64,000 nucleotides of DNA from Candidatus Thiodiazotropha sp. GTDB lineage: Bacteria; Pseudomonadota; Gammaproteobacteria; Chromatiales; Chromatiaceae. This document shows positions 28,611 to 50,022 of this stretch, piece by piece (the stretch's first letter is position 1; the number at the start of each line of letters is the position of its first letter). A program made the translations under genes and the position numbers. The notes beneath the pieces were generated by a model. The model made no database searches and was not told the DNA's origin. It saw only the letters and a list, made by a program, of their open reading frames with translations. The stretch is taken from positions 1 through 64,000 of the forward strand of contig JAIVEQ010000019.1 of NCBI GenBank assembly GCA_023838465.1. Direction: 5' to 3'.

Positions 28611-29459
28611 ATGACATTGGTTAAAGGTAAAACGAATAAGCTGAATATAACGGGTCAATCCTTGTTAACACTATCTGCTTCTTCAATCTCGCCAAATGCC
28701 AAACCATCCAATAAGTCAACCTCCTTGAAAGACAGGATGCCTTTAATGAATCCTCAAGTCTCCACCGATTTCACCGATCTTATTGGGCATGAGCAGTTGC
28801 CTTCACAGAGAATGAACTCTGAGGAGCAGGAGAAGAAGAGGATCTCACGGGAACTACATGACGGATTAGGTCAGCTGTTGACTACAATGGGTTTGCATGT
28901 ACAGCATTGTCTGGACGGTAGTTCTAGTGACGTTCCATTATCAGGAAATCACAGGGAGTCTCTTGAAGCGCTCTCTTCCATGGTTAAACAGGCGATCACT
29001 GAAGTAAGAACAATTTGCAGCGCCATCCGTCCTGCTATTTTGGATGACCTGGGGGTACTGGCGGCTGTCTCATGGCAATGTCGTCAGATATCAAGAATCT
29101 GTTCCAAGGTGGATGTCGTTACTGATTTTGATATTGATGAATCCCAAATACCTGAAGCGCATAAGACTGTCATCTATCGGATTGTTCAGGAGTCACTGAA
29201 CAATGCTGTGAAATATTCCCAGGCAAATGTGATTCGGGTTTCCATGGTCCACTCTCAGGATGCTATCCACCTTACAATTTTGGATAATGGTATCGGTTTC
29301 GACCTTGCTGATATTAAGGATAAGTTAGGGTTGGGCTTGATGAGTATGTGTGAACGGGCCGAGTCAGTAAACGGCAAAATGGATATGCATGCAGGTGTTG
29401 ATCAGGGTGTAGAGATTCGCGTTGTTTTTCCCGTGCAAAAAATTGCACTCAACGGTTAA
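28611..29459 (+). CDS. NarL-family cytosolic sensor histidine kinase
   Basis: About 282 aa from the ATG at 28611, chosen for the AGGGG upstream; an earlier ATG lies at 28497. The N-terminal 70 residues show no known domain and no membrane segment. The HisKA_3 helix is KKRISRELHDGLGQLL with His83. The catalytic part is complete: IVQESLNNAVKYSQ (N-box), LDNGIGFD and LGLGLMSMCERA. It should therefore autophosphorylate. It faces the response regulator gene, with their 3' ends overlapping by 11 bp, and the two are a likely pair. Input is unknown; a soluble kinase with a short N-terminus may need a partner sensor. Confidence 0.85.
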   Translation: MTLVKGKTNKLNITGQSLLTLSASSISPNAKPSNKSTSLKDRMPLMNPQVSTDFTDLIGHEQLPSQRMNSEEQEKKRISRELHDGLGQLLTTMGLHVQHCLDGSSSDVPLSGNHRESLEALSSMVKQAITEVRTICSAIRPAILDDLGVLAAVSWQCRQISRICSKVDVVTDFDIDESQIPEAHKTVIYRIVQESLNNAVKYSQANVIRVSMVHSQDAIHLTILDNGIGFDLADIKDKLGLGLMSMCERAESVNGKMDMHAGVDQGVEIRVVFPVQKIALNG

Positions 29460-30117
29460 TAATTCCCTTCTCTAGCGCATAGGTCGTTAGTGCCGAAACA
29501 CTGTGTAGATCAAGCTTCTTCATCAGATTGGCGCGGTGTTTTTCCACCGTTTTTACACTGATACAGAGATATTCCGCCATACTCTTATTGGTGTGCCCCT
29601 CAGCAATTAACTTAAGAATTTGCCGCTCTCTTTGAGTAACCGTATCCCAACGGGTAACAGGTTCTTGGTTGACATTGTTTGTATTCAGATAACTGTTGAC
29701 TACTTTTTCAGTGATCTCCGCACTCAAGTAGGTCTTTCCATTCAAGACCCGTTCGGCGGCTGTCATCAATTCATTTTGGGTAGCATCCTTCAATACATAG
29801 CCGTTAGCTCCAGCTTTAAGACTGGCAAGTACATACTCTTCCTCATTGTGTACCGTTAGAACCAGTGTCTTGACATCGGGCATGCGCTCTTTGATTTCAC
29901 GTATTGCATCCATGCCGTTCAATCCAGGCATACTCAAGTCCATGATAACCAAGTCGGGTTTAAGATCGATGACACGGCGAATAGCTTCGCGACCATTGTC
30001 AGCCTCACCGATTACTTCAAACTGCGGATTAGAGGTCAACAATGCCTTGAGCCCGGCGCGTAAAATGTTGTGATCTTCGGCGATGATGATTTTCTTCTTG
30101 TCCACGTCCATTGCCAT
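29449..30117 (-). CDS. NarL/FixJ-family response regulator
   Basis: A 222-aa two-domain regulator: receiver with IIAEDHNILR, phosphoacceptor Asp60 (LVIMDLSMPG), T (VLTVHN) and K (YVLKDAT), then a LuxR-type helix-turn-helix (TQRERQILKLIAEGHTNKSM, SVKTVEKHRANLMKKL). Convergent with and overlapping the kinase gene. It is transcribed away from the 30.7-kb secreted protein operon, so that operon is a candidate target. Confidence 0.93.
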   Translation of the reverse strand: MAMDVDKKKIIIAEDHNILRAGLKALLTSNPQFEVIGEADNGREAIRRVIDLKPDLVIMDLSMPGLNGMDAIREIKERMPDVKTLVLTVHNEEEYVLASLKAGANGYVLKDATQNELMTAAERVLNGKTYLSAEITEKVVNSYLNTNNVNQEPVTRWDTVTQRERQILKLIAEGHTNKSMAEYLCISVKTVEKHRANLMKKLDLHSVSALTTYALEKGIINR

Positions 30118-30706: not shown

Positions 30707-33700
30707 ATGATAAACGAGAATCAGGGTTACAAAAACAGAGGTGTGATGGTTTTTATCGCACTAACTCTGCTTTTTCTGACTACAACTGTAAATGCAGCTC
30801 AATTTAATTTGAATGTTGTGGATAAGAATGGCAATGCGGTGGACGGTTTCCGCTGGCTGTTGCAGGAGGATAAGACTTTTGCAGTTGATCCTGCCAATCC
30901 ATCGATCATTCCCGATGAACTGCTCTCCATGGGTTTTCATGCCAGTAACCACCCACCCGCATTAGCGCAACTTACTGGTGCTGGCTTGAGTGGAAATGTA
31001 GAGACAGATGCGGTCAACATCACAAGTGTACCACCAGGCCGTTACTATGTTTCTGTGCTGCCTTATGCAGGTTATAGCATCAGTGGTAACCAAGCGGTGG
31101 TACTACCTAATGCAGAAGACCCGAATCAAACGCTGGATAATGTCACAGTTGTGGTGCAGAAACAGCCGATTCCTACAGCCCAGATCGCGATTTATCTGTT
31201 CCATGACAATGCACCGATCAATGGCACACCTGATCTACCGGAAGAGACTGACCCTGGTGTAGGCCAACCCGGCCATGTGGACTGGACTCAGTTCGAACTG
31301 TTTCTTGAAGAGCCGGCAGGCCGCTATGGCCAGAATGGCGGCCAGGTCATCCAGGATGTATTCGGCAACCCATTGGGTACCGTATATCAGCATGGTTGTG
31401 ATGCTGACGGACAACCCGATGCGGATCCCAATACTTTTTACGGCTGTTTTGATGCGAATGGTGATCCGATCGTCAGCAGTCTTGGTAACGGTACGCTGCA
31501 ACCTGATGAGAATGGCTTCCTGACGGTCAAGAACATTGCACCAGGCAAATACGGTGTGATCATCATTCCTCCAACACCTTCGACTGACCCAGGTTGGGTA
31601 CAGACCAGCACCATTGAAGGCAGCAAGGTTATCGATGCCTGGGTTAAAGCGAATGAGCCCCCCTTGTTTGTTGAATTCGGTCTTCCAGGGCCCCACGTCT
31701 TTGTAGGTTTCGTTAAATCCACAGCTGATGGCGGATTTCCTCCCTTGTCTGCCGGTCCAGGTCAACAAGTGGCGAGCATCAGCGGAACTATCACTGACAT
31801 GCATATGTCCCGCTCCCCGAACTTTCAGTTCTTTAGTGGTCGTCCGTTTCCTCAATGCTGGATTGGTCTGAACGAATCCACACCAGGCGGTTTAGGAAGA
31901 GGGCTTTATGCCGCACCTTGTGATGGCGACAGTAATTTCTCTATCCCGAATGTGCCTCCTGGCAGTTATCAGTTGGTTATCTGGGATAAACCTTTGGATG
32001 CGGTTATTGCTGCCCAACCTTTTACCGTTGATGAAACCGGTGGTACCTGTAATGGCGGTTCAACCTGTAACTTTGGTGATGTTCCCGTATTCAACTGGTT
32101 TGCCCGTCTGAATACCGCTGTCTTCAATGATGTTGACCAGGATGGTTTCTGGGAGCCGGATGGTGCTGATGGCATAGCAGGTAATTCAGACGATGAGAAC
32201 GGCATTGGTCCAGAGAGTCAGGATGTCAGTGTCCGCTGGCGTGATGGCACGATCTATCAGAACTTCGCTATGGATGGTGCAGGTGAAGCACCTTTTGATC
32301 AGGTTTTCCCCTTCTTTCATTGGCTGGTGGCTGAAGTCAGCTTTGCCAACAAGAAGGCAACAGGCGCCACATTTGTTGTGGATGCTGGTGGTGAAATCCT
32401 TGCCGATAATGGTTGGGACATGCCCTCGCTTGACGAGTTGACACCACAGGTACAGGTTTGTACACCGGCTCAATCACTGAATCCTGATGATCCAGATGCT
32501 GGCTGTGTCGTTGGTGATCCTCTCGTCAATGTAAACACGGGCAATAACCTTTCCAGGACTGAGACCGGTCAAGTGCTGACCACGGCCTTCCAGGGATTCC
32601 TGGGACAGACCAGTGTCATGCAATTCGGTAAGACCGACTATGTAAATTTCACTGCGCCAGATTTCACAACCGTTCCACCTACCTTGCCTCAGTTCGTTGG
32701 TGAGAATGGCGGTGTCTCAGGTATCGTTTACTATGCCACCGTACGTGCTGAGGATGAGCCTCAGTTTGCGGCTGCAGAGACTTGGGAGCCAGGTATTCCC
32801 CGCGTACAGATTAACCTGTATGCCGACGGTGACATCGACTGTTTTCCTCAAGGAAACTTTGGTGCCGATGACTGTGACATCGACTGGAATCAGAACGGTG
32901 GTCTGCCTGAACCAGACGATGGTGTCATTGATGATATCAATGGTAATAACGTTATCGACTTGGCTGACGTAGATAATTATCCTCTAGGATGGGCCGATGG
33001 CGGTGCACCTGGTGTCGAAGACGTCGACCGTAATGGTAATGGTGCCTTCGACCGCGGCGATGCCCTTGCTGTCACTTGGACCGACAGCTGGGATGACAGT
33101 CTGCCTACCGGTTGTCAGGGTCAAAACCTGATCGACTTCGATCAAGATGCCACCATCACAGATGAAGAGAACAGCCGCTGTTTTGACGGTCTGCGTAACT
33201 TCAATCAAGTCCGCCCTGGCGTATTTGACGGTGGTTTTGCTTTCAACAACTACGATACATCAACACTACCTGTAGCTATTCAATCCAGTCTGAATGCTTT
33301 CTATGCAAGCAGACGTGGTGTAGATAATCCTCTTCATCTGCCTGAAGAGTGGATGTTACCCTCCGACTATATCGTCGAAGCAGCAACGCCAGGTGGTTAC
33401 AAACTGGTGAAGGAAGAGCACAAGAACGTCGATTTTGGCGATCAGTACATCCCCTCCACTCAAGCAATTGCAGCCACTTGTGTCGGCGACATGCGCCCGG
33501 TTCCTGCTTTGCTTGCGATGGCGACTAAGGATGGCAGCGGTGATCTTGCGCAGATTCTCCCAGGCTTGGATCCGGCTGATGTAGCAGCGCCTTTTACGGG
33601 TGTTAGTCGTCCGCTCTGTGATCGTAAAGAGGTCCCTCTCTCCGGTGCGCAAAATGCGGGTGTTGAGTTCTTTCTGATGACAGATGTGCCCTTAGTCGGC

Positions 33701-36673: not shown

Positions 36674-36703
36674 AACGAGCGATGTGGATTGATCTCATGA
36701 GGG

Positions 36704-36736
36704 TGGAACCCTTGCTCATCGAGGGTAAGGGTTCCA
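36704..36736 (+). repeat. Hairpin between surface protein and oxidase genes
   Basis: TGGAACCCTT-(13 nt)-AAGGGTTCCA forms a 10-bp stem without a T run. It may slow transcription or protect an mRNA end, setting different amounts of the giant protein and the downstream oxidases. Confidence 0.5.
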
Positions 36737-36806
36737 ACCAAAGGGATCAGCAAACAGCAAAATTTGTTTTTAGGCAGTTACAAAAAATGATGAGGAGTAA
36801 CGCCAG

Positions 36807-38084
36807 ATGAAATTTTTTACAAAAAAAGCTCTTAGCGGAGCAATAGCAATCACATTGCTCGGGATGATCGGAAGCGCCGGTGCTGTTGTGAATATTCAGT
36901 GTCCTGGTGATACCAATGGTGATGCGGTGATCGATACACCAGATCCTAATCATCCGAATGCAAAATGTATGTCACTCATCGCAGGTGACAGTTTTGCCAT
37001 CATGTCAGATGACAATCCCCTATACATCTTCGGTTTTGGCGATCAGACAGGTACTCCTGAAGGTGATGTCATCTCAAATGGTATTCTGGATGCAGAATGG
37101 TCCGGTCCGACTATCGAACTGGATGAGGGAGATGAGCTTTGGCTTAACCTGTCAAACGTGGGTACCGTTATCCGTCCTGATCTGTTCGATCCTCATACAA
37201 TTCACTGGCATGGATTCCCCAATGCTGCCACTGTTTTTGATGGTGTGCCTGAGGTTTCAGTCAGTATCAATATGGGCGCGACCCTGAGTTATTACTACAA
37301 CGTGGTTGAGCCAGGCACCTACATCTACCATTGCCATGTGGAAGCTACTGAGCATATGGAGATGGGCATGTTGGCCAATCTCTATGTACACCCTGCACAA
37401 GATGCGACGGGTTGTGCGAGTGCGATACCTGGTTGTCCCGTAGCCACACGTAAAGGTGGTTCGGCTGCTGGTGCGCCGTTGGGTTATGCCTACAATGACG
37501 ATGATGGCACAACGGCTTTTGATCAGGAGAAGGCCCTGCAGCTAGCCAGTTTCGATTCAGACTTTCATGATGCCAGCCTGTTTGTACAGCCACTGCCATT
37601 TGCCTTGTTGGAAGGTGATTATCCGCAAATCAACGGTCGTGGCTATCCCGATACCATTGTGTCTGGAAGCCTCCCGGCACCAGTGGATGACGTGAACGGA
37701 AAAGTGACAGGTAATCCTGGTGAACTACTGAATAACGGAACCCCAACCCAGACTCTGGATTCAGTGATCAGTGTTGCCCAAGGTGAGCGGCTCTTGCTTA
37801 GGCTCTCCAATGTGGGCCTGGATCGGTTCTGGACAGTCACTGTACCCGGTCTGAAGATGCAAATTGTCGGTACCGGCGCCCGCCACATGCGTGGTACTGA
37901 CGGAAAGAATCTCTACCGCACTACCTCTTCTGTAAATTTCGGCGGTGGTGAAACACACGATGTGATCATTGATACCACGGATGTTGCAGCAGGGACTTAC
38001 TTCCTGCATGCCACTGAATTGCACCAAATGAGCAACAGAACGCAGTTCGACGGCGGCATGATCACCGAGATCGTTGTGAACTAA
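36807..38084 (+). CDS. Multicopper oxidase subunit with type-1 site and half trinuclear site
   Basis: A 425-aa secreted protein (signal to about residue 26) with two cupredoxin domains. The N-terminal domain has H130-x2-H133-x-H135-G (DPHTIHWHGF) and H175-C176-H177-x5-H183-x4-M188 (YHCHVEATEHMEMGM). These supply a full type-1 copper set (H130, C176, H183, M188) and four trinuclear histidines. The spacing x5 after HCH differs from the usual x3. The second domain has the fold pattern (GERLLLRLSNVG, GTYFLHATELHQM) but no HxH pair. On its own the protein lacks four of the eight trinuclear histidines of an active multicopper oxidase; the next gene has them. AT-rich start, 22 bp before the next gene. 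Confidence 0.85.
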   Translation: MKFFTKKALSGAIAITLLGMIGSAGAVVNIQCPGDTNGDAVIDTPDPNHPNAKCMSLIAGDSFAIMSDDNPLYIFGFGDQTGTPEGDVISNGILDAEWSGPTIELDEGDELWLNLSNVGTVIRPDLFDPHTIHWHGFPNAATVFDGVPEVSVSINMGATLSYYYNVVEPGTYIYHCHVEATEHMEMGMLANLYVHPAQDATGCASAIPGCPVATRKGGSAAGAPLGYAYNDDDGTTAFDQEKALQLASFDSDFHDASLFVQPLPFALLEGDYPQINGRGYPDTIVSGSLPAPVDDVNGKVTGNPGELLNNGTPTQTLDSVISVAQGERLLLRLSNVGLDRFWTVTVPGLKMQIVGTGARHMRGTDGKNLYRTTSSVNFGGGETHDVIIDTTDVAAGTYFLHATELHQMSNRTQFDGGMITEIVVN

Positions 38085-38106
38085 GACCAAGCCGAGCTAG
38101 GAGATA

Positions 38107-39498
38107 ATGATGATGAGAAAACTACTCAAACAACCTGGACGGCTGATGGGCGTCCTGATGTTGGGTGTGGCGAGCCTGCTCCCTTGGGCGCAATCTCAAG
38201 CTGCCCACGACATTCGTGGGATCACACCGCAACCAGGGGGCGAGTTCAATCTGTACGCCTTCCCTTTCAATATGAACCTGCCGGAAGGCACCAGTCTTCG
38301 TATGTGGGGTTTTGGTGATATGAATGCGGGAACAGGCGCATCCCACCCACAAGGGCAGGGATACGCACTACCCCAGTATCCGGCGCCGACTCTGATTGTC
38401 ACTGAAGGCGAATCGATCACGATCAACATGACCAACTACGGTGTACCGAATCCGGTTTCCATTATCGTTACCGGTCACCAGGTGACTGCGACCGGTGGTT
38501 TAGCGGGTCTTTTGACCAACACTTCGGATCCTTCGGGTACACAAACAGTGACCTACAGCTTCACGGCAGGTAGCCCGGGCACCTATATCTATCACAGCCT
38601 GGATGGTACGAATCCAGGACTGCATGCAGAAATGGGTCTACAGGGCGTCATGGTGGTCCGACCAGCCGATGGCAGTCGTTCAGCCTATGGCACCGGGACA
38701 GGGACGGACTATGATCAGGAAAATCTCTACCTGATGACAGAAGTGGACCCCGATATCCATATTCAGATGGAAAAGGGTCACTACGAACATTTCACACACT
38801 CGGACCGATATGCCTCGGTCTGGTTTTTGAACGGCCGGGTCTTTCCTGATCTCTTTCAGGGAGACTACAACAACCTGTTCCCAAACCAGCCCTATGAGTC
38901 CCTGGTTATGGCCCATCCCGGCGACACCGTTCTGGTACGCAATGTGAACGCCGGCCATGACTCCCACCCCATGCACTACCATGGTGAAAACCTGAGGTTC
39001 ATTGGACGGGATGGCAAGATGCTCAGCTCTGATGGTGTTGTGGCTGATCTAGGTCGTTCGGACAACACCATCAACTCAGCACCCAAGCAGACAGTCGATG
39101 CCCTTTGGACCTGGACTGGTAAGGGTCTCAACTGGGATATCTATGGTCACGATACCGGCCATGTCTGTGTCGATGGTGATGGCGATGGATTCGGTGATAC
39201 GGCGAATGGAACGACCTACGAACATGAGTATTGTGCTGATCACGGCAAGGCACTTTCCGATCTGGTCACCTTGCCGGGTGTCGGTGAATTGAGTCTCGGT
39301 GGTTGGTGGAGTGGTAGTCCCTTCCTGGGCGATACAGGCGACTTGCCTCCGGGTGAGGGCGGTCTGAATCCCTTCGGCGGTTACTTCCTGGTATGGCACT
39401 CCCATGCTGAGAAAGAACTCACCACCTTCGATATCTTCCCTGGTGGATCACTGGGTGCAGTTGTCGTCCTTCCGCCGTACATCGGCATTGATGAATAA
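38107..39498 (+). CDS. Multicopper oxidase subunit with the other half of the trinuclear site
   Basis: A 463-aa secreted protein (signal to about residue 32). AGGAG precedes a triple ATG, so the exact start is open by two codons. The N-terminal cupredoxin domain mirrors that of the previous protein (RMWGFGD, TEGESITINMTNYG) but the copper positions have become VTGHQV and IYHSLDGTNPG. The C-terminal domain carries SHPMHYHGENL (H287, H290, H292) and VWHSHAEKEL (H431, H433). The type-1 cysteine position is Ser432. It thus has four trinuclear histidines and no type-1 copper, the complement of the previous gene product. Also contains an acidic loop DGDGDGFGDT, perhaps calcium-binding. Confidence 0.85.
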   Translation: MMMRKLLKQPGRLMGVLMLGVASLLPWAQSQAAHDIRGITPQPGGEFNLYAFPFNMNLPEGTSLRMWGFGDMNAGTGASHPQGQGYALPQYPAPTLIVTEGESITINMTNYGVPNPVSIIVTGHQVTATGGLAGLLTNTSDPSGTQTVTYSFTAGSPGTYIYHSLDGTNPGLHAEMGLQGVMVVRPADGSRSAYGTGTGTDYDQENLYLMTEVDPDIHIQMEKGHYEHFTHSDRYASVWFLNGRVFPDLFQGDYNNLFPNQPYESLVMAHPGDTVLVRNVNAGHDSHPMHYHGENLRFIGRDGKMLSSDGVVADLGRSDNTINSAPKQTVDALWTWTGKGLNWDIYGHDTGHVCVDGDGDGFGDTANGTTYEHEYCADHGKALSDLVTLPGVGELSLGGWWSGSPFLGDTGDLPPGEGGLNPFGGYFLVWHSHAEKELTTFDIFPGGSLGAVVVLPPYIGIDE

Positions 39499-39515
39499 GT
39501 GGGGAGGGAAAGACA

Positions 39516-42269
39516 ATGAAAAGGTCCAAAACCATGAATGTTAAGATCAAACCAATTGTAATTGCATGCGCCTTGGCTCTGGCAACCAGCCCCGCCATGG
39601 CATTGACAGATAAATATCTGATTGCCAAAGAGTTTGTCAAGACTTTGCCTGATGGTACTACTGTCACGATGTGGGGTTATGCGGAAGATGTGGGAGGCGC
39701 TTGTTATAGTACAACGCCGATAGCCGACCGATTGGCTAGCGCTGCCTGTCAGGATCCAATAGCCACCGCTCCGGGTCCTGAACTGGTGATACCTGTAGGC
39801 GAGCCAGATTTCAGAATTTTTCTGACCAATCTGCTGACTGTTCCCAGTTCTATCATTATGACCGGACAGGAACGTCCTCATTCCAATAATGTCAGCAATG
39901 GTCCTACCTGGAATTTTGGCCCGGTTGGTAATCGTACCAGTGCAACCCAAAAAGTACGCTCCTATGGTCGTGAAGCGGGGGCCAACGGTGGCCGCAGGGC
40001 TTATGTTTGGAATACCTTCCGAGGTACCCCCATCGCAAACCCAGGTGGTACTTTCACCTACTACTCCGGTACAGAACCTCAAAAGCAGGTCTACATGGGG
40101 CTGTATGGTGCTGTTACAAAGAATGCGGCTGCCGGAGAGATTTATCCGGGTGTAGCATTTACGAATGAACAAATACTGTTCTACAGTGAAATCGATCCGG
40201 ACCACAATGCTGCGGTTGCAGCGGGTGATCCGAATTATACGCCTATTGCGTACCACCCAAAGTGGTTCCTGATCAATGGTGAACCCTATGAGGATGGAAC
40301 AACTCCGGATATAGCTATAGGCAACGCCGGTGTGCCGACACTGCTGCGTTTTCTGAGTGCAGCCAGTGAAAATCATGTGCCTGTCTTTCAAGGCCTGCAC
40401 GGCATGATCCATGCGGAAGACGGTATTCAGTACAACTGGCAGGATGGAGTGACGGGGGTTACAACAACGGCACCTCGTCAACAATACTCAGTCGGCTTAC
40501 CCCCACTGATGACCAAGGATGTGATTGTCACGCCAGCTTTGGAAGGACGCTATGCGGTCTATGATGGCAACGGCTATATGACCAACCCCAGTGACCCGGA
40601 AGTGATCACCGCCGGTGATACCGTGGGTGGTATGTTGCGCTTCCTGAATTTTGGACCAAGTGTTGCGAATGCACCACCGGTTGCTTTGCCTGACACACTG
40701 ACCATTGAATTCCCAGAAGGCACTATGACCGGTGTGAGTGGCGTGGTGGATGTCCTGGCCAATGACACTGATCCTGAATTAATGCCACTCACAATCACAC
40801 AATTTGATGCCACAACACCCGAAATCGGTGGTACCGTCTCATGTCTGGGATCGGAGTGTACCTTTACTCCAGCAGGGGGAGATCCCAACCCTTATACAAC
40901 TGGAACAGGTACATTTACCTATACCGTTTCAGATGGTCCTAACGCTGTGGCAGGTGTTGTGGTGACCGTTGATGTGATTGAGAATATGGCACCGACGCCT
41001 GTGACTGATGACGTCGCGACTGATACCGGTGTGGTGCTAGATTTCAACGTGCTGACCAACGATACAGATCCAGAAACAGATACGCTCTCAATAGTCACTC
41101 TGGATACTGCAGGTATCGTTGAAGGTTCATTGAGCTGTGACAATGGAACAGGTGCCTGTACCTATACACCACCTGCTGTGCCAACACTACTGCCATTGGT
41201 TGAGACATTCACCTACACTGTCGAAGATGGTATCAACCTGGAAAGTGCAGCGACTACCGTAACCATTACGGTCACTGATCCCATACCTGCAGCGCCCGTC
41301 GGCGTTAACGATACCTATAACATGGTTGAAGACGGTGTCTTGGATGTAGCGGCTCCTGGTGTATTGGAGAACGACACGGATGCCAATGGTGATGCATTAA
41401 CTGCGGTGATGGTGAGTGGGCCGACTAATGTGCGTCCGGATCCAAACAACCCAGGCCTTTTCCTGTTCAACCTGAGCCCCGACGGTTCGTTCCATTATGA
41501 GCCTGATGTTGACTTCAATGGTGTGGACAGCTTTACCTACGTGGTGGATGACGGTACGTCAATCAGTGGTCTAACAACAGTCACGATTACGGTTGATCCA
41601 CAGAATGGCACACCAATCGCCAATAACGATATGCTGTTTCTACAGGATGCCTCGTTGACCACCTTGAATGCGGATGGAGAAGTCATCGAGACCATCTTTA
41701 ACATAGCGGCACCTGGCGTGCTTGATAACGATGTTGATGTGGATGCAGCTGATACGCTAACAGCAGCGGAGGTCAATGACCCGGATAATGTCACCCCTGA
41801 ACTGGTAGGAACGGATGGTGCGGCTACTATCACGGTTGACCATGCTGCAAGCGGTATAGTGGGCAGCCTGACCTATGAGGCGACCGACACAGCCGCGGCA
41901 GTCAGCAATGTGGCCCAGGCCGATTTCATGAGGCTGGTATCCGTGAGACGCTCTGAGTACAACATGCGTCAAAATGCCAATCCGGCCAATGATGACTGGC
42001 GTATCAGGGGTAGTGTGGATGCCAGTATCGCACCAGGAACCCAGGTGCATGTCTTCCTGGTCAGGGGGGGTGCTGATGTCGCAGAGATTCTACCGACTGT
42101 GACTGGGAATAATAACGGTCTGGTTCGGAACAATCGCAACTGGGGCATCAATGCCAACAATGTCGGCAATGCTGGACTTCTCGCTCTACCCGGGGATACT
42201 CTGCGGGTTGAGGTGGAAGGGAATGCAGATGTGATCTACCTGAACTATCCTGTGTTTATCCAGCCTTAA
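39516..42269 (+). CDS. Cupredoxin-like protein without copper ligands, Ig-like repeats
   Basis: A 917-aa secreted protein (signal ending SPAMA, good AGGGA site). Residues 30-375 repeat the two-domain plan of the previous two genes (TMWGYAED, then LHGMIHAEDG at the place of HPMHYHG), but every copper histidine pair and the cysteine are lost (SSIIMTGQE, TYYSGTEP, HVPVFQG). From about 383 to 800 are three to four tandem cadherin/BIg-type domains marked VLANDTDPE, VLTNDTDPE, VLENDTDAN and VLDNDVDVD. The C-terminal 110 residues form another sandwich (SEYNMRQNANPANDDWRIRG). It probably provides structural domains of the oxidase complex plus a stalk or matrix-binding part; independent oxidase activity is not expected. 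Confidence 0.8.
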   Translation: MKRSKTMNVKIKPIVIACALALATSPAMALTDKYLIAKEFVKTLPDGTTVTMWGYAEDVGGACYSTTPIADRLASAACQDPIATAPGPELVIPVGEPDFRIFLTNLLTVPSSIIMTGQERPHSNNVSNGPTWNFGPVGNRTSATQKVRSYGREAGANGGRRAYVWNTFRGTPIANPGGTFTYYSGTEPQKQVYMGLYGAVTKNAAAGEIYPGVAFTNEQILFYSEIDPDHNAAVAAGDPNYTPIAYHPKWFLINGEPYEDGTTPDIAIGNAGVPTLLRFLSAASENHVPVFQGLHGMIHAEDGIQYNWQDGVTGVTTTAPRQQYSVGLPPLMTKDVIVTPALEGRYAVYDGNGYMTNPSDPEVITAGDTVGGMLRFLNFGPSVANAPPVALPDTLTIEFPEGTMTGVSGVVDVLANDTDPELMPLTITQFDATTPEIGGTVSCLGSECTFTPAGGDPNPYTTGTGTFTYTVSDGPNAVAGVVVTVDVIENMAPTPVTDDVATDTGVVLDFNVLTNDTDPETDTLSIVTLDTAGIVEGSLSCDNGTGACTYTPPAVPTLLPLVETFTYTVEDGINLESAATTVTITVTDPIPAAPVGVNDTYNMVEDGVLDVAAPGVLENDTDANGDALTAVMVSGPTNVRPDPNNPGLFLFNLSPDGSFHYEPDVDFNGVDSFTYVVDDGTSISGLTTVTITVDPQNGTPIANNDMLFLQDASLTTLNADGEVIETIFNIAAPGVLDNDVDVDAADTLTAAEVNDPDNVTPELVGTDGAATITVDHAASGIVGSLTYEATDTAAAVSNVAQADFMRLVSVRRSEYNMRQNANPANDDWRIRGSVDASIAPGTQVHVFLVRGGADVAEILPTVTGNNNGLVRNNRNWGINANNVGNAGLLALPGDTLRVEVEGNADVIYLNYPVFIQP

Positions 42270-42279
42270 TGTAAATGGC

Positions 42280-42310
42280 AATCAACCCCTGGTTATTCCA
42301 GGGGTTGATT
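42280..42310 (+). terminator. Strong hairpin after the third oxidase gene
   Basis: AATCAACCCCTGG-(TTATT)-CCAGGGGTTGATT is a perfect 13-bp stem with a 5-nt loop, 11 bp after the stop codon. The following TTGATTTGTC is only partly T-rich, so termination or 3'-end protection are both possible. It divides the oxidase genes from the downstream part of the cluster. Confidence 0.65.
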
Positions 42311-42361
42311 TGTCAAATCACAGGAAAGTAGTAACAGTATGAGCTTAAAGGGTAGGTGTTA

Positions 42362-42958
42362 ATGAAAAACCCTGACTATTCCGATAGGCCAAGTATGGAT
42401 GACCAGAAAAGTCATCCTAAAGGTCATCCACTGTTGATTATCATGGTAGTGGTTATCTGTATGACGGTGTTGATGGCTTTTGCCTCCTCCGTTGCCAAAA
42501 GCGCCGAAAGCCCGGCGACTGTCACCCAATCTCAGCAATCTATTTTCAAGGACTGGAAACCTCCGGTAGCTCAGCCTGTCAAACTGCCATCTCCGGTTTC
42601 CCCTCAAACGGCCAAGGAGATTGCGGAAAAGTGGGGCGTTGAACTGATCAGCCTGCGTTTAACCGCTGCCGGCTATATGATCGATTTCCGTTTTCGCGTG
42701 CTGGATGAAAAAAAGGCTAACAGCTTCTTTGATCACCGCATCAAACCGTTGCTGGTGGTTGAGAAATCTAATGCTAAACTACCTGTACCCATGGCCGCTA
42801 AGGTGGGCGCTTTTCGTCCAACGAATCGCGGCAAGAGTATTCGGCCAAATAAGATCTATTATATGGTTTTCGGCAATCCTGATGCCCATGTGAAGTCGGG
42901 AGAGAAGGTCACGATGGTGATCGGTGATTTCAAGGCTGAACACTTAACCGTTAACTAA
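42362..42958 (+). CDS. Membrane-anchored protein of unknown function
   Basis: 198 aa from the ATG at 42362 (GGGTAGG upstream); a GTG two codons earlier is also in frame. A short basic His-containing cytoplasmic N-terminus (MDDQKSHPKGHP) leads to one membrane helix (LLIIMVVVICMTVLMAFA). A Pro-rich linker follows (KPPVAQPVKLPSPVSP), then a periplasmic domain of about 120 residues (WGVELISLRLTAAGYMIDFRFRV, YYMVFGNPDAHVKSGEKV). The domain has no cysteine and no evident metal motif. No family recognised. Its position between the oxidase genes and the copper chaperone suggests a role in assembly or anchoring. Confidence 0.75.
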   Translation: MKNPDYSDRPSMDDQKSHPKGHPLLIIMVVVICMTVLMAFASSVAKSAESPATVTQSQQSIFKDWKPPVAQPVKLPSPVSPQTAKEIAEKWGVELISLRLTAAGYMIDFRFRVLDEKKANSFFDHRIKPLLVVEKSNAKLPVPMAAKVGAFRPTNRGKSIRPNKIYYMVFGNPDAHVKSGEKVTMVIGDFKAEHLTVN

Positions 42959-42984
42959 TATTTATTAAATGACAGGACAGTTTT

Positions 42985-45900
42985 ATGTGCACTAGGATTT
43001 CCATATTAAGATTATTGTCTCTGTTAGCCATTGCGTTACCCTTCGAAAGTCAATCAGCAGTTACTGTTTATTGTTGTGATGCAACCGCGGAAGCTCAATA
43101 CATACAGGATTTGGCCTCATTACCATCCATCACGGTCGACCTGACATCAGAAAGCTTTGAGGGTGATGCCTGGGTTGGTACACGTTCCTTACCGGAAGCC
43201 ACAGTCACATCGCAGGGCATTACATGGGCACCGAGTTCGAGTGGTGTTGCCGGTATGAGCACCAGTATTGGCGGTGGGGATGTGCATGATGGCAGCTATT
43301 TGATGTTTCCTGTCGATGACAGAAATAATCATCTGATTCCTGATCAATATAACTTGACCGCCAATGGCATAACCTTATACGGCGTCGGAGGTTGGTTTCG
43401 TAGCGCGTCAAGCACAAAATTAGCATTCACCAGCAACGGCTCTGAGGCCATTGATTTCACGGGTGAACAATCGACTGTTTTCGACTGGACATTTCTTGGT
43501 TTTATCGACGATGCTGGATTCAGCAACCTCATGATTCAAACATCAGATGAGATAGGAAATGAAGCGAATACTTTCTTTTCTGATGATTTTACCTTGGGTG
43601 CGCAATCGGGGGCATTTCCCGGCCAGAAGTTACAATTCAGCAGCGCCACTTATTCAACCAATGAAAGTTCCTCCAGCACACAGATTACAGTACAAAGATC
43701 AGGTGGTACATCGGGAGCGCTTTCGATCGACTATGCCTCCACCTCTGATGGCACAGCCAGCGCAGGACAAGATTTTACCGCGGTATCAGGCACTTTGGAC
43801 TTTGCTGATGGAGAGAGTAGTAAACAGTTCACCATCAACCTTCTTGATGATGGCGTATTTGAAGGTGATGAGACGGTCACATTGTCCTTGAGTGGTAGTG
43901 CCGTCGGGGTTATAAACACAGCAACATTGACAATCTTGGAGAATGACGCTCAACCTGTCGGAAGCGTAGAGTTTAGTGGTAGCAGTTATCGGGTTGATGA
44001 GGGGATAGGAAGCATTATAGTTACGGTTCAAAGAAGTAACGGAAGTGTCGGCAGTGGCTCTGTTGACTATGCCGTGAGCGATGGTACTGCGACTGCCGGC
44101 AGTGATTACACGTCTGCTGCTGGCAGTTTATCCTTCATTGATGGCGAAACAAGCAAAAGCTTCACTGTGGATATTACCGACGACAGTACACAAGAAGGTG
44201 CCGAATCGGTTGTACTGAGTTTGAGTAATCCAGTCTCTGTTTCCCTGGGAGAGAGAGATTTTGCTGATATAACCATCCTTGATAATGAACCGATACCTGC
44301 AGCCGGTAGTATTCAATTTAGCGGTTCTGCATACAGCGTGACTGAGGGCTTATCTGAGGTTGTGATACCGGTGACCCGCGTCGGTGGAAGTAGTGGGGCT
44401 GTCAGTGTTGTCTGCAGCACTGCGGATTCGAGCGCCCTGGCTGGGAGTGACTATTCAGCCACTCAAAGTAGTATCAGTTTTACTGAGGGTGAAACCTTGC
44501 AGCATTGCAGAGTCCCCCTCCTGAACGACAGCAGCTATGAAAACGATGAGTTGTTTATGGCTAATCTGGGAGCACTCACTGGCGGTGCTATCCTGGCTAC
44601 ACCTGCTATGGCTGTTGTTACCATTCAAAATGATGATCCAGTCCCTGTTGCAGGCAGCCTGCAGTTCAGTTTGGTTGAGTTTCAACAAACAGAGAATGGA
44701 GGCAGTGCAACCATTTCAGTGACTCGCTCAGGTGGTTCAAGCGGTGCCGTCAGTGTCAATTATGCAACTTCAGATAACAGTGCTGCGGCAGGTGAGGATT
44801 ATAGCGCGACCAATGGTAGCTTGAGTTTTGCCGATGGCGTTACTACCGCATCATTTCAAGTCACAATACTAGACGATAGTGCCTATGAGGGCGACGAGCG
44901 AGTCAATCTCAGCCTTAGCAATCCATCTGGCGGTGCTGTAATTGGTGCTAATTCAGCAGCTGATTTGATTATCACTGAGGATGATCAGGCACCAGCTTCA
45001 GGTCAAATTGAATTCAGTGTGAATACCTATGCTGCAGATGAGTTTAATGGAAGCGTGACAATCGAAGTGGTACGCCAAAACGGTAGTACCGGTGTTGCGA
45101 TGGTCAATTACACAACCAGCGATGGAACAGCCACTGCAGGCAATGATTATATTGTCAACAGCGGTACCCTTATCTTTGCCAATGGTGAAATCTCGAAGAG
45201 TTTCGATGTGACCCTGAATGATGATGCAAATTTCGAGGGCATTGAAACGTTCAATCTGACCTTGAGTAATGTGTTTGGTGCTTTACTGGGGGATATTACC
45301 TCAGCATCTGTCAGTCTCAGCGATGACGATGACCCACCAGCCGCCGGGGCTGTGGTGTTTACCGAATCAATCCAATCAGTCTCAGAAGATGGTAATAGCG
45401 CAACCATCTCGGTATCACGTGAGGGTGGTTCCGCTGGGGCCATATCTGTTGATTATACTACAATGGACGGCTCTGCAATCGCTTCCTCAGACTATACGTT
45501 TAGTACCGGTAGAATCAGTTTTGCTGCAGGTGAGGCAGTCAGTAAATCCTTCGATGTAGCAATAGTCAATGACACACAATTGGAAGGTGATGAGCAGTTA
45601 GCACTACAGCTGGTTAATCCTCAAGGTGGTGCTGTACTGGGAACGCAAAGCTTATCACAGCTGACCATCAATGATGATGAAGCACAGTCGAGCTCTGCCA
45701 TTCTTGCCTTCACAGTGAATAGCCTCTCTGTCGATGAATCATCTGCGGTCGCAAACATATCTATCAGCCGTGCAAATGTGCTGACGGGTAGCGTAACGGT
45801 TGATCTTAGCGTTGAATCCACAACGGCTGTTTCTGGCACTGATTTCAACGTCACAACCGGAACTTTACAGTTTGTCGATGGGGAATCACAAAAGAATATC

Positions 45901-46173
45901 AGTGTAGAGATCATCGACAACACCCTAGAAGATGGAAATAAGACGATTACATTTACGATAGGCAATGCAACTGGAGTAGCGGTTATAGATACTGCCAATA
46001 GTACAGTAACACTCACCATACTGGATGATGATGGAACCACAAATCCAGGTAATGATGATAGTGGTGGAGGCGGCGGCGGTGGCGGCAGTATTGATCTGCT
46101 ACTGCTGGCTTTTCTCCTGTCTTTAACCCTGTTTTTGTACAAATTCAGGCTGAATTTGTCACCTAAGTGTTAA
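42985..46173 (+). CDS. Seven-Calx-beta surface protein with GlyGly-CTERM-like tail
   Basis: A 1062-aa secreted protein with a signal peptide to about residue 25. Residues 30-210 form an anchor-type sandwich domain with paired cysteines (YCCDATAE). Seven tandem Calx-beta domains follow, each with the pattern S-x-Y-x-V-x-E, G-T-A-x-A-G-x-D-Y and D-D-x-x-x-E-G-x-E. The C-terminus is a Gly run (SGGGGGGGGS), a hydrophobic helix and a few basic residues (YKFRLNLSPKC). This resembles the GlyGly-CTERM signal handled by rhombosortase, which acts on T2SS-exported proteins; a match to that exact family is not certain. Calcium-stiffened adhesin or matrix protein is the likely role. Confidence 0.8.
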   Translation: MCTRISILRLLSLLAIALPFESQSAVTVYCCDATAEAQYIQDLASLPSITVDLTSESFEGDAWVGTRSLPEATVTSQGITWAPSSSGVAGMSTSIGGGDVHDGSYLMFPVDDRNNHLIPDQYNLTANGITLYGVGGWFRSASSTKLAFTSNGSEAIDFTGEQSTVFDWTFLGFIDDAGFSNLMIQTSDEIGNEANTFFSDDFTLGAQSGAFPGQKLQFSSATYSTNESSSSTQITVQRSGGTSGALSIDYASTSDGTASAGQDFTAVSGTLDFADGESSKQFTINLLDDGVFEGDETVTLSLSGSAVGVINTATLTILENDAQPVGSVEFSGSSYRVDEGIGSIIVTVQRSNGSVGSGSVDYAVSDGTATAGSDYTSAAGSLSFIDGETSKSFTVDITDDSTQEGAESVVLSLSNPVSVSLGERDFADITILDNEPIPAAGSIQFSGSAYSVTEGLSEVVIPVTRVGGSSGAVSVVCSTADSSALAGSDYSATQSSISFTEGETLQHCRVPLLNDSSYENDELFMANLGALTGGAILATPAMAVVTIQNDDPVPVAGSLQFSLVEFQQTENGGSATISVTRSGGSSGAVSVNYATSDNSAAAGEDYSATNGSLSFADGVTTASFQVTILDDSAYEGDERVNLSLSNPSGGAVIGANSAADLIITEDDQAPASGQIEFSVNTYAADEFNGSVTIEVVRQNGSTGVAMVNYTTSDGTATAGNDYIVNSGTLIFANGEISKSFDVTLNDDANFEGIETFNLTLSNVFGALLGDITSASVSLSDDDDPPAAGAVVFTESIQSVSEDGNSATISVSREGGSAGAISVDYTTMDGSAIASSDYTFSTGRISFAAGEAVSKSFDVAIVNDTQLEGDEQLALQLVNPQGGAVLGTQSLSQLTINDDEAQSSSAILAFTVNSLSVDESSAVANISISRANVLTGSVTVDLSVESTTAVSGTDFNVTTGTLQFVDGESQKNISVEIIDNTLEDGNKTITFTIGNATGVAVIDTANSTVTLTILDDDGTTNPGNDDSGGGGGGGGSIDLLLLAFLLSLTLFLYKFRLNLSPKC

Positions 46174-46199
46174 CTGTTAAAGGAATTCGGAGAAGTTTG

Positions 46200-46964
46200 A
46201 TGATGTCTTTAGTTTCAAGGAACATGCGTGCTGGCTTATTTATTTTGCCTGCTATGGTTTTTTCGCTAGCCGCATACTCTTCTGAAGGCGAACTTAGTGA
46301 TGCACCCGGCATAAAAACCGGGACGTTTCAACCGCCTTTTAAGATGGACTGTATCACCAGACCCTCCAATGACATGACTACCGCCAAAAGATTTATGGTC
46401 TCTACGAATATGAGCGACCATTCGAATCATGATCAGCATGCTCATCACAGGATGATGATGGAGCAAAATGACTATAAAATCGATAAAGTCGTTTATTCAA
46501 TTCCCGATGTTTTTTTAACATCTCATAAAGGCGAAAAGACTCATCTCCCTCAACTTCTAAATAGTGACAAGCCGGTGATGCTTAATTTTATATTCACCAC
46601 CTGTACGACTATCTGTCCGGTACTATCTGCAAGCTTTCATCAAGTTCAGGAGATTTTGGGGAAAGAAGAGTCTGTCTCTATGATATCAATCACCATTGAC
46701 CCGGAATATGACACACCACAGCAGTTGATGAAATACGCCAAGCGTTTTAAAGCTCAGGACAATTGGCAGTTCTTTACCGGCAGTTACAAAGATGTAGTGT
46801 CGGTCGAAAAGGCATTTGATATTTTTCGAGGTTCAAAACTGAACCATGAGCCCATTACTTTGATTCGAGGTGATGCTGAGGCATCTTGGATAAGGATTAA
46901 CGGTTTGGCCAGTGCAGAGGATATAGTAAAGGAGTATCACAGTATTATGGATAATGAGGAATAA
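46200..46964 (+). CDS. SCO1/SenC-like copper chaperone
   Basis: A 254-aa exported thioredoxin-fold protein. Start at 46200 has GGAG upstream. An N-terminal signal or anchor is followed by a histidine-rich stretch (SDHSNHDQHAHHRMMMEQ) and the SCO domain with FIFTTCTTICPVLSASF (C135-x3-C139), ITIDPEYDTP and the NHEPITLI histidine. SCO proteins deliver copper to cytochrome oxidase or act as thiol-disulfide reductases. Next to multicopper oxidase genes, loading those proteins is the likely job. The extra His/Met-rich segment fits copper capture. Its stop overlaps the next start (TAATG). Confidence 0.88.
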   Translation: MMSLVSRNMRAGLFILPAMVFSLAAYSSEGELSDAPGIKTGTFQPPFKMDCITRPSNDMTTAKRFMVSTNMSDHSNHDQHAHHRMMMEQNDYKIDKVVYSIPDVFLTSHKGEKTHLPQLLNSDKPVMLNFIFTTCTTICPVLSASFHQVQEILGKEESVSMISITIDPEYDTPQQLMKYAKRFKAQDNWQFFTGSYKDVVSVEKAFDIFRGSKLNHEPITLIRGDAEASWIRINGLASAEDIVKEYHSIMDNEE

Positions 46965-48604
46965 TGAAAAAAAAAACGAATTGGTTTTTTCAGCTTTGTC
47001 TGATAACTAGCTTAGTTGGGTATTCATCTGCATCGGTAAACTGTGCTGAGATCGATACTAATAAATATCAGATCGGCAAGCAGCTCTATACTGATGGTTT
47101 ACTTCCGTCCGGTGAGCCAGTAAAAGCAGTTGTTCAGGGTGATATCCAGGTTGAAGGCAACCAATTGATTTGTGAGACATGCCATAGAAGAAGTGGTATG
47201 GGCTCGACGGAAGGCCAGCAAGTCGTCCCGGCAATCGCGGGTCATATCCTCTTTAAACCACTCAAATTACCTACTAGTCGACCACCTGAGCCCCCCATCT
47301 ATCGAGATGGCTATACAAAACAGTCCCTAATGAGGGCAATCAGAGATGGGGTCGATGTAAATGGTGAGCCTTTGGATCCATTTATGCCCAGGTATAATAT
47401 TGATGAGGCGACTCTTGATGGTTTGACAACCTATCTCGATACACTTTCGCAAGCAGCATCCCCAGGTGTTACGGAAACAACCATTCACTTTGCCACTGTG
47501 GTACTCGCATCCAATAAGGAAGAAGATAACAGAGCGCTTCTGGATGTGATGAGCTTGTATGAAGAACAAAAAAATACTGAAACGCGGCACGAATCTAAGA
47601 GAGCAGAAAATGCACCGTGGCATAAGGAGTGGATGTTTAAGCCCTATAGGAAATGGCAAATTCATACTTGGGAGTTAACGGGTGATGAAGAGAGCTGGCC
47701 ATCACAATTAGAAGCGCTTTATGCAAAACAACCTGTTTTTGCTCTTTTAAACGGTCTTGTGCCTACAGGCTGGGAGAAAATCCACAACTTTTGTGAAAGT
47801 CAGAGCCTACCGTGTCTATTCCCTACCACCCAGTCGCCTGTTGTGGCAGAAAAATATTTTTACTCCATCTATTTGAATAAAGGTGCTGCGCATGAGGGTG
47901 AAGCAATAGCATCCTATCTTTCGAATAGTGAAAAGAGTGTCAATGTTATTCAGTATATCGATACATCTGATCAACTGAGCATGATGGCAGCAAATTCACT
48001 CCGTGATAGGTTACAGGAGAGAGATATTGCAGTTACTGATGTCATGTATAGTGATGTGATCGAGTCTAGTCAGCAGTTAGAAGTGTCACAGCCCAATCAG
48101 GTTACCGTATTGTGGCTGGGGCCGGGTAAAACAGATGAGTTATTGACAAGGCTGGGTAAAATCACCCCAACATCTATACCCGATGTTGTTCTTTCTACAA
48201 GGTTTTATGGAACCACAACAGATTCAATACCCTCTCGATTTCATGACTCAGTAAAGTTTATACATACCTCGGAAATGCCTCAGCGCCTGAAACGCTTATT
48301 GATGAGGTCCACAGGTTGGTTTAAATCGAAGAGGATTTATAATTCTGATGCGCTGGAGATTCAGGCTAACGCATTCTTTTCACTAAAGGTAGCCGGTGAT
48401 GCGCTTAAAAGTATCAGGGGTTATTTTTTTCGGGACTATTTTATCGAGAAAGTTGAACACATGATCGATGATATACCCTATACTTCGATCTACCCAAGGG
48501 TCAGCTTAGCGCCTGATCAACGGTTTATCTCGCGAGGTTTCTATGTGGCGGGAATAGACAATAGTGGCAAGCTCGTTAACTTCACAGATTGGAAGGCTCC
48601 GTAG
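46964..48604 (+). CDS. Cytochrome c fused to periplasmic-binding-like domain
   Basis: A 546-aa periplasmic protein with a signal peptide to about residue 28. The N-terminal 170 residues are a class I cytochrome c domain: heme site C70-E-T-C73-H74 (LICETCHRRSGMG), a conserved DGVDVNGEPLDPFMPRYNI with the probable axial Met, and LTTYLDTL. From about 180 to the end is a type-1 periplasmic-binding (amino-acid/urea-receptor-like) fold, with FATVVLASNKEEDN and PVFALLNGLVPTGWEKI. This fusion could sense or bind a small molecule while carrying electrons. It lies between SCO and a sensor kinase, so it may be the kinase's extracytoplasmic partner. Partner and ligand are inferred. Confidence 0.78.
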   Translation: MKKKTNWFFQLCLITSLVGYSSASVNCAEIDTNKYQIGKQLYTDGLLPSGEPVKAVVQGDIQVEGNQLICETCHRRSGMGSTEGQQVVPAIAGHILFKPLKLPTSRPPEPPIYRDGYTKQSLMRAIRDGVDVNGEPLDPFMPRYNIDEATLDGLTTYLDTLSQAASPGVTETTIHFATVVLASNKEEDNRALLDVMSLYEEQKNTETRHESKRAENAPWHKEWMFKPYRKWQIHTWELTGDEESWPSQLEALYAKQPVFALLNGLVPTGWEKIHNFCESQSLPCLFPTTQSPVVAEKYFYSIYLNKGAAHEGEAIASYLSNSEKSVNVIQYIDTSDQLSMMAANSLRDRLQERDIAVTDVMYSDVIESSQQLEVSQPNQVTVLWLGPGKTDELLTRLGKITPTSIPDVVLSTRFYGTTTDSIPSRFHDSVKFIHTSEMPQRLKRLLMRSTGWFKSKRIYNSDALEIQANAFFSLKVAGDALKSIRGYFFRDYFIEKVEHMIDDIPYTSIYPRVSLAPDQRFISRGFYVAGIDNSGKLVNFTDWKAP

Positions 48605-48630
48605 ATCTATGCATATTTGTCGCAATAACT

Positions 48631-50022
48631 ATGATGGATATCAACAATAACAAAGTCCAGGTTTCTTCAAAATCTAACTATCAACTTGCAAGAAGATATG
48701 GCGTAATCAGTTTTATAGCGATTATCCTGACTGCCTTTGTCATACTGCTTTTCTTTAGATACGAAACCAGCCAGATCATTCAAGACTCCAGTAAGCAGAG
48801 TAACGAGTCGCTAACAATAGCAACCGAGTATGCGCTCAATGATCACTTTGTGATGTTTCTTAATCTCACAAAGGTCAATAAAGATAAAATAATATCAAAA
48901 ATGCCGTTTGAGCCTATGCTTGAGCGCGCCATCAAGAAAATGATAGCCGATACAGATGTCGATAGAATCAAGCTATATGATACATCTGGGATGGTGATGT
49001 ACTCATCGAAGGCAAGTGCCTATAACGATGATGAAGACAATGATAGCTTCAAGTCTGCGTTAGCGGGTAACCCGAAAACAGTATTGAATTATCAGGATAG
49101 TTTCAGTTTTTTTAATACAAATACCAAGGATGTCAACCTGGTCCAGACTTATGTTCCAATACGTGCGAACAATTCATCACCGATCCTAGGTGTGATGGAG
49201 GTTTACTACGATATTAGTGGCTATGTGAGTCAATCAGATAAAACACTTTTTGTTCTGGTGTTAGTGACACTTGCATTGATGCTTTTTCTTTACTTTTTTC
49301 TACTCATGCATATCAAAAGGTCTGAACGAATTATCGATGATCAGAACCGTATCACAAGAGAAAAAAAGATCATGCTTGAGTTTCTTACTGCCAAGATGAT
49401 TCATGCCCAGGAAGATGAGAAAAAACGAATTGCCTTTGAACTGCATGAGGATGTTGTACAGACCCTGTCCGGGGTTAAGATGCAGCTCGAGAAGTACATA
49501 TTAACTGTGGGAACAATGGATGATGATAGCAGTGCAAAGCGACTCTCCCAAGATATCGTACCCGTGTTGCAGAATGCTGCCCATAAGATAAGAGCCGTAG
49601 CGATAGATTTACGCCCTCCAAGTCTTGATGATTTTGGCTTGAAGGCGGCCATCAATTCATTGGTCTCCGAGTGTCATACAGTAACAACAGGGCTGGAAGT
49701 TGAAGTCGATTTATCACTCAATGAGGACGAAATCACCGCTGATCGAAAATCGATTCTTTATCGAATTGTCAAAGACACACTCAAGGCGATCTGTTTTGAG
49801 GAGAAGTTTGCAGGCAGGGTGCAATTTATTTTTAAACATATTGACGAAGGGCTAATGATAAAGGCGGTGATCATTACTGGTCAAATCGGGGATAAGTATG
49901 GTGAAGATTTACCCGCTTTTTTTGACTCTATGAAAGAGAGGACGATCCTTTCAGGTGGCGACTTCTTTGTTGTAAATCAAGCTGAAGAAAGGGTTGAGGT
50001 AATCTCCTCTTGGTCCTATTAG
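48631..50022 (+). CDS. HisKA_3-type sensor kinase with degenerate ATP-binding domain
   Basis: A 463-aa two-helix membrane sensor: TM1 (ISFIAIILTAFVILLFF), a periplasmic sensor domain of about 160 residues, TM2 (TLFVLVLVTLALMLFLYFFLL), then KKRIAFELHEDVVQTLSG with His272 and SLDDFGLKAAI. The catalytic domain is abnormal. The N-box asparagines are lost (YRIVKDTLKAICFEE), the DNGxGF loop reads IITGQIGDKYGE and the GLGL loop is absent. ATP binding therefore looks doubtful. No regulator gene is adjacent; the NarL regulator at 29449 is the nearest candidate. It may be a scaffold or signal-transfer subunit that works with another kinase. Confidence 0.8.
   Translation: MMDINNNKVQVSSKSNYQLARRYGVISFIAIILTAFVILLFFRYETSQIIQDSSKQSNESLTIATEYALNDHFVMFLNLTKVNKDKIISKMPFEPMLERAIKKMIADTDVDRIKLYDTSGMVMYSSKASAYNDDEDNDSFKSALAGNPKTVLNYQDSFSFFNTNTKDVNLVQTYVPIRANNSSPILGVMEVYYDISGYVSQSDKTLFVLVLVTLALMLFLYFFLLMHIKRSERIIDDQNRITREKKIMLEFLTAKMIHAQEDEKKRIAFELHEDVVQTLSGVKMQLEKYILTVGTMDDDSSAKRLSQDIVPVLQNAAHKIRAVAIDLRPPSLDDFGLKAAINSLVSECHTVTTGLEVEVDLSLNEDEITADRKSILYRIVKDTLKAICFEEKFAGRVQFIFKHIDEGLMIKAVIITGQIGDKYGEDLPAFFDSMKERTILSGGDFFVVNQAEERVEVISSWSY

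Follow-up and report, generated by a model that had tools for sequence, protein, structure and literature searches.

The question raised by this locus is what a run of surface and copper protein genes could build together, and which electron donor the product would oxidise. It lies in Candidatus Thiodiazotropha, a gammaproteobacterial sulfur-oxidising symbiont of lucinid clams, within a stretch of 64,000 nucleotides that we call the window. The original prediction had grouped a giant beta-helix surface protein, a split oxidase, a membrane-anchored protein, a Calx-beta surface protein, a SCO copper chaperone, a cytochrome c/binding-protein fusion and a sensor kinase into one extracellular oxidation cluster, with Mn(II) as one of several candidate substrates. 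We consider it probable that this cluster makes a secreted hetero-oligomeric multicopper oxidase (MCO) on a giant surface scaffold, in which subunits A and B would share one trinuclear copper site and form a ring with subunit C, and whose donor is likely a metal or mineral.

A gene cluster conserved in many unrelated bacteria

The genes named in the original prediction are intact and share the forward strand (30656/30707-50022; Table 1), and Pfam agrees with the assignments of the genes starting at 36807, 38107, 39516, 42985, 46167 and 48589. Spacing is tight, with 22 nt between A and B and 17 nt between B and C, and the last three gene junctions overlap. Two points needed revision. The “split oxidase” does have Cu-oxidase domains in 36807 and 38107, but it comprises three genes, the third of which (39516) carries two degenerate cupredoxins. 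The genes do occupy the bounds proposed (30707-50022), but the set also includes a subtilase (50156-53068) and a response regulator and kinase (28497-30117). Scans for promoters and terminators gave results at chance level.

Table 1. Positions of the cluster genes and copper-ligand motifs in the window
Feature	Positions	Strand	Evidence
HisKA_3 sensor kinase adjoining the cluster	28497..29459	+	Pfam HisKA_3/HATPase_c
NarL/LuxR-type response regulator, probable cluster regulator	29449..30117	-	52-57% identical regulators beside homologous clusters
Giant secreted scaffold, prealbumin/SdrD-like domains then beta-helix	30707..36673	+	Conserved upstream of A
Subunit A, two-domain cupredoxin, predicted type 1 copper and one trinuclear half (domain 1)	36807..38084	+	Pfam, ligands 86/86
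A ligand motif HTIHWHG, residues 130-136	37194..37214	+	
A ligand motif HCHVEATEHMEMGM, residues 175-188	37329..37370	+	
Subunit B, two-domain cupredoxin, predicted other trinuclear half (domain 2), without type 1 Cys	38107..39498	+	Ligands 90/90
B ligand motif HPMHYHG, residues 287-293	38965..38985	+	
B ligand motif HSH, residues 431-433	39397..39405	+	
Subunit C, two ligand-free cupredoxin domains and cadherin/Big_9 repeats	39516..42269	+	Pfam, tree (sister to B)
Membrane-anchored beta-sandwich protein	42356..42958	+	51/67 non-genus loci, alignment, AlphaFold2 pLDDT 86
Calx-beta surface protein	42985..46173	+	Pfam, seven Calx-beta stretches
SCO1/SenC copper chaperone, CTTIC motif	46167..46964	+	Pfam
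Monoheme cytochrome c fused to LivJ-type binding domain, MofC-like architecture	46964..48604	+	CxxCH, family profile
Membrane HisKA_3 sensor kinase, last gene of the run	48589..50022	+	Pfam
Subtilase (Peptidase_S8) with Calx-beta repeats, inverted in the window	50156..53068	-	PF00082 E 1.7e-49

One scan of a species-level genome collection returned 208 relatives of B, and the best 80 of these were examined. Among these 80, carriers of the cluster were found in Gammaproteobacteria, Gallionellaceae, other Betaproteobacteria, Desulfobulbaceae, Geobacter relatives, Nitrospirae, Acidobacteria, Planctomycetes and other groups. All 33 long loci from outside the genus displayed the order helix-A-B-C, and the anchored beta-sandwich gene came next in 32 of them; SCO was present in 9 and the cytochrome fusion in 6. 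Across all 67 non-genus loci, the neighbours were the anchored protein (51), SCO (14) and the cytochrome/binding-protein fusion (11), and the A-B and B-C gaps across loci were mostly <40 nt. Within Thiodiazotropha, where homologues reach 97% identity, a strong B orthologue was found in 17/22 genomes (the window's own counted) and a divergent B in two more, and close species keep the order through the SCO and cytochrome genes where the stretch is long enough. Three divergent loci (L050, L052 and L053) show a changed gene order downstream of the anchor gene. The family is uncommon, occurring in 10/369 sampled genomes of the class and, for A, in 2/398 of the phylum. Taken together, these results demonstrate that the gene set forms one conserved system common to many unrelated bacteria; its members occur together and not scattered, partly in keeping with the single functional cluster that had been proposed. 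One gammaproteobacterial genome (G286) holds three divergent B copies on three contigs, perhaps several clusters.

Genes for ccm and type II secretion (T2SS) are also present inside the window, and a link to both had been suggested. Around the 67 non-genus loci, we found 0 ccm relatives within ~10 kb, and T2SS-type ATPase genes at only five loci; since neither travels with the cluster, we rejected T2SS and ccm as parts of the system.

The trinuclear copper ligands are divided between two subunits

In the alignment of A, residues H130, H133, H135, H175, C176, H177, H183 and M188 show no variation across the 86 sequences spanning them. H287, H290, H292, H431 and H433 of B are likewise invariant (90/90), a conservation that is partly selected at one motif because WHSH was included in one of the two locus-search patterns, with the HPxHxHG motif of B and all A ligands outside that selection. 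Position 432 of B, the place of the type 1 Cys, is always Ser, and the alignment of C sequences has no conserved His or Cys. Compared to a classical two-domain oxidase, A thus keeps the domain-1 ligands only, B the domain-2 ligands only, and C neither. Because the ligands are complementary in A and B and absent in C, no subunit alone is able to build a trinuclear site. In the ligand table used for this comparison, the last HxH motif of B, and of a related subunit B' described below, falls one column off in the alignment; the motif is present in the sequences.

Both A and B match Pfam Cu-oxidase, and the full ligand set of the multicopper oxidase superfamily is obtained only when the two are combined. 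Two cupredoxin domains per chain are found in A, in B and in the front part of C. The best sequence matches of A are the two-domain MCOs 3g5w (Nitrosomonas) and 2zwn (mgLAC), with which it shares two domains and the motifs HTIHWHG and HCHxxxxxH. Whereas each subunit of a classical two-domain MCO has both trinuclear halves, here the halves lie on different gene products and none of A, B or C has both. Ceruloplasmin (1kcw) and MnxG (9bxa) have six cupredoxin domains in total, as do A, B and C together, but in one chain; in the window and the examined loci the domains are spread over three separate genes, with only one predicted type 1 site. Identity with NirK was also considered and rejected: A differs from the NirK entry of the ligand table in having HCH and HxHG motifs with the complete set of type 3 His, and B scores 48.6 against the NCBIfam NirK cut-off of 296.

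We predict one trinuclear site at the A/B interface, in an A-B-C assembly tied to the giant protein. In such an enzyme the type 1 copper of A, which carries four of the trinuclear-site histidines, would oxidise the donor; B would supply the remaining four; electrons would pass from the type 1 copper to the interfacial site, where O2 would be reduced to water; and C, with both ligand sets lost, would probably take the third place in a three-subunit ring of two-domain units. Several carriers are related to anaerobes, and a haem-copper oxidase is absent in 1/12 carrier genomes tested, so O2 as the acceptor is not certain everywhere. A different reading, in which B (and C) survive only as structural relics while A forms a homo-oligomer or relies on a different partner, appears very improbable: C shows that ligand-free subunits are retained in this family, but the five histidines of B are invariant, and the second domain of A lacks the partner histidines in 11/11 sequences of the ligand table. 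The predicted heteromeric MCO with one interfacial trinuclear site is what is new here. As far as could be found, a trinuclear site divided over two proteins has not been described before, and our literature search on heteromeric split MCOs found no paper.

Structure model and origin of the subunits

A mixed A/B/C alignment collapsed all three subunits onto A. AlphaFold2 was therefore given a natural same-frame A-B-C read-through (from L131) together with paired rows from other genomes. The resulting A-B-C model is middling (pLDDT 65, pTM 0.65), with the copper loops as its weakest parts. Foldseek returned ceruloplasmin (1kcw) as the top match (E 3e-38), but over their full length the two superpose poorly (TM about 0.2); MnxG (9bxa) was also among the fold matches. 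A three-domain laccase superposes on model residues 417-1156, across B and C (Z 32, 2.9 Å, 379 residues). This model is compatible with a ring where C sits against B in the way that laccase domains sit against each other, so that domain 2 of B is left to face domain 1 of A. The A/B site itself falls in the low-confidence part of the model, which does not display it, so that its placement between A and B is one that we infer.

Phylogenetic analysis placed B and C as sisters (96), adjoined by B' (92), which is linked to RND genes; A and A' fall outside the B/C/B' group, in a branching order that the tree does not settle. In Gallionellaceae, A' and B' make up a second split pair that adjoins RND-size genes and shows the same complementary division of ligands. 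Together with this pair, the tree suggests an early duplication with complementary loss, and a later second duplication that would have led to the ligand-free C. The second pair is found at L152:8827-10892 and also in L154, L158 and L159, with genes of RND-efflux size adjacent; one subunit has the motifs HTIHHHG/HCHVNTPLH and the other HAVHTHANH/HLHDE, with no Cys. Classical two-domain oxidases occur in other Gallionellaceae loci (L151:8292-9347 and L153:7339-8442) near NirK-like genes and genes of RND-efflux size.

It has been proposed that six-domain copper proteins such as ceruloplasmin and the clotting factors arose from a triplicated two-domain unit (PMC3600357). Somewhat less firmly than the assembly itself, but still with fair confidence, we regard the cluster as encoding a natural MCO that builds a single trinuclear site from two paralogous products and keeps a third, ligand-free paralogue in the ring; it would be a living intermediate, reached via complementary loss after duplication, between homotrimeric two-domain and single-chain six-domain oxidases. 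If true, the triplication scheme would lead one to expect such a step, a heteromeric form that is widespread and has kept a single site.

Fusions of the oxidase to a giant surface protein

The giant protein has 2005 aa; its frame is open from 30656 and its signal peptide begins at 30707. Its own Pfam matches are weak, with added hints of NosD and choice-of-anchor Q, and its beta-helix assignment comes from relatives, namely the SdrD_B and Beta_helix domains of a fused relative in L136. On these grounds we accepted the giant beta-helix surface protein of the original prediction, whose surface or extracellular location also agrees with the export predicted by sequence. In L136, an Acidobacteria genome, helix, cadherin and A form one natural fusion of 2281 aa with no N in the sequence, and in Cupriavidus metallidurans CH34 and Paraburkholderia there is a natural C-cadherin-helix fusion of about 2700 aa. 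That the helix protein is joined to A in one genome and to C in others strengthens the case for an A-B-C assembly attached to it. Other apparent fusions were discarded: an A-B fusion in L124 arises from a gap in the assembly (XXXX within the reading), and the fused-looking ORFs of L127 and L132 are wrong-frame extensions.

Relation to known clusters and the likely electron donor

The cluster as such is already known, though uncharacterised. In Sideroxydans lithotrophicus ES-1, He et al. (2017) described three tandem MCO genes with a mofC-like and a SCO gene; they predicted an extracellular location for the MCO trio and reported that it lacks homology to OmpB/MofA (PMC5566968). Keffer et al. 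(2025) reported a higher abundance of Slit_1812-1818 on magnetite compared with Fe(II)-citrate; two of its proteins carry MCO motifs, and a third, larger one has domains resembling those of adhesins and polysaccharide lyases. They also reported similar clusters in Paraburkholderia and Ralstonia (PMC12016527). Our Burkholderiales loci, with homologous A, B and a C-helix fusion, match that description, and it is on this match that we call the cluster known. By gene order and published description, not by sequence, the locus resembles Slit_1812-1818 in its three tandem cupredoxin genes, of which two have MCO motifs and the larger one has none, and in its SCO1/SenC, MofC-like cytochrome, small hypothetical genes and predicted extracellular location. 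The window follows the order described for Slit_1812-1818 apart from an additional Calx-beta gene; the Gallionellaceae loci L156 and L157 follow it too, and in L135 the SCO and cytochrome genes have changed places. The ligand division, separate giant beta-helix gene, helix fusions, subtilase and spread over phyla set our findings apart from the Slit_1812-1818 account as far as it is described there. The ES-1 cluster that our locus resembles had already been proposed to serve extracellular metal oxidation.

The Mn(II) hypothesis of the original prediction found no specific support. According to it, the enzyme would be a Mn(II) oxidase like MnxG, McoA or MofA that deposits Mn oxides on the surface, which we hold unlikely. 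A secreted MCO with SCO and a cytochrome-binding fusion is the MofC architecture reported beside MofA and OmpB (PMC5566968), and MnxG is among the fold matches above. OmpB (Geobacter) and MofA (Leptothrix) are indeed secreted MCOs beside a MofC-like gene, OmpB also beside SCO, but they are described as single large oxidase chains and, according to the same report, are not homologous to the ES-1 trio. MnxG, too, is one six-domain chain where we find three chains. No evidence points to Mn in particular, and the sole expression evidence reported from a relative concerns magnetite (PMC12016527). Given the higher abundance of the relative's cluster on magnetite, we favour solid Fe(II) over Mn(II) as a guess at the substrate; the proposed mechanism would likely draw its electrons from a reduced metal or mineral located at the surface of the cell, with Fe(II) solids ranking ahead of Mn(II).

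A laccase-type oxidase for copper defence, or for phenols or siderophores, that merely happens to sit on the surface seems quite unlikely to us. MCOs often act in copper tolerance, the second split pair of Gallionellaceae adjoins large RND-size genes, and the cluster has NosL or SCO neighbours; yet no efflux genes recur around A-B-C, and a giant scaffold and extracellular site are unsuited to periplasmic Cu(I) oxidation. If the heteromeric oxidase is real, the cluster would provide a candidate enzyme for attack on solid minerals, as well as names and parts for an uncharacterised surface oxidase of iron, sulfur and methane cyclers, animal symbionts included.

Partner genes and their putative roles

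SCO, the cytochrome c/LivJ-type fusion and the NarL-type two-component system are frequent partners of the cluster. The copper loading that had been proposed agrees with the presence of SCO, or of NosL in one Desulfobulbaceae relative, and SCO (NosL in that relative) would load the oxidase, perhaps with the cytochrome-binding protein fusion. The protein from 46964 has one CxxCH and a weak Pfam cytochrome c match (E 0.008, below the Pfam cut-off); in PDB, its family profile matched cytochrome c chains and, over residues 269-483, a LivJ-type (Leu/Ile/Val) binding protein. Its assignment as electron acceptor in the original prediction was a guess. Since the cytochrome gene travels with SCO, the fusion may serve copper loading instead. 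We give a similarly low probability, as for Mn(II), to an electron-uptake or transfer module without O2 chemistry, in which the type 1 copper of A would pass electrons to a periplasmic cytochrome. Such a module would agree with the invariant type 1 ligands of A, the often adjacent cytochrome-binding protein fusion, and the Desulfobulbaceae and Geobacter relatives among carriers, but all eight trinuclear histidines are invariant and would be superfluous for a pure electron carrier, and the cytochrome gene, found in only 6/33 long non-genus loci, is therefore no obligatory local partner. At the position of SCO downstream of another cluster (L080:14873-16276), there is a NosL-type protein with a Phenol_MetA_deg domain, and related ORFs lie beside five other clusters.

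Returning to the predicted oxidase, of the 42 non-genus loci that extend far enough downstream, 34 have a relative of the subtilase catalytic domain (42-56% identical) shortly after B/C, following the anchored protein; this gene, left out of the original prediction, belongs to the cluster as a core neighbour, and it probably matures or assembles surface parts. A kinase is found beside the cluster in 11/11 informative Thiodiazotropha loci and 8/44 others. Regulators 52-57% identical to the NarL-type protein at 29449-30117 lie beside the distant clusters of L068, L086, L109, L111 and L135, and this two-component system probably regulates the cluster.

The anchored protein (42356-42958) was modelled by AlphaFold2 with a pLDDT of 86. 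Searches with its fold found no match that rose above the noise level (best Z 6.2, with a PCuAC copper chaperone at 6.1, and Foldseek E 0.04), and its alignment has no strictly conserved His or Met beyond the start; for these two reasons we assign it no copper role. Many of its homologues (e.g. in L090, L117 and L130) have a lipobox-like Cys behind the signal, so that outside the genus it is probably a lipoprotein. The Calx-beta protein is found in this position mainly in Thiodiazotropha. The C-terminus of the window's copy (42985-46173) has a Gly-rich run, a hydrophobic stretch and basic residues, and resembles a cell-surface sorting tail.
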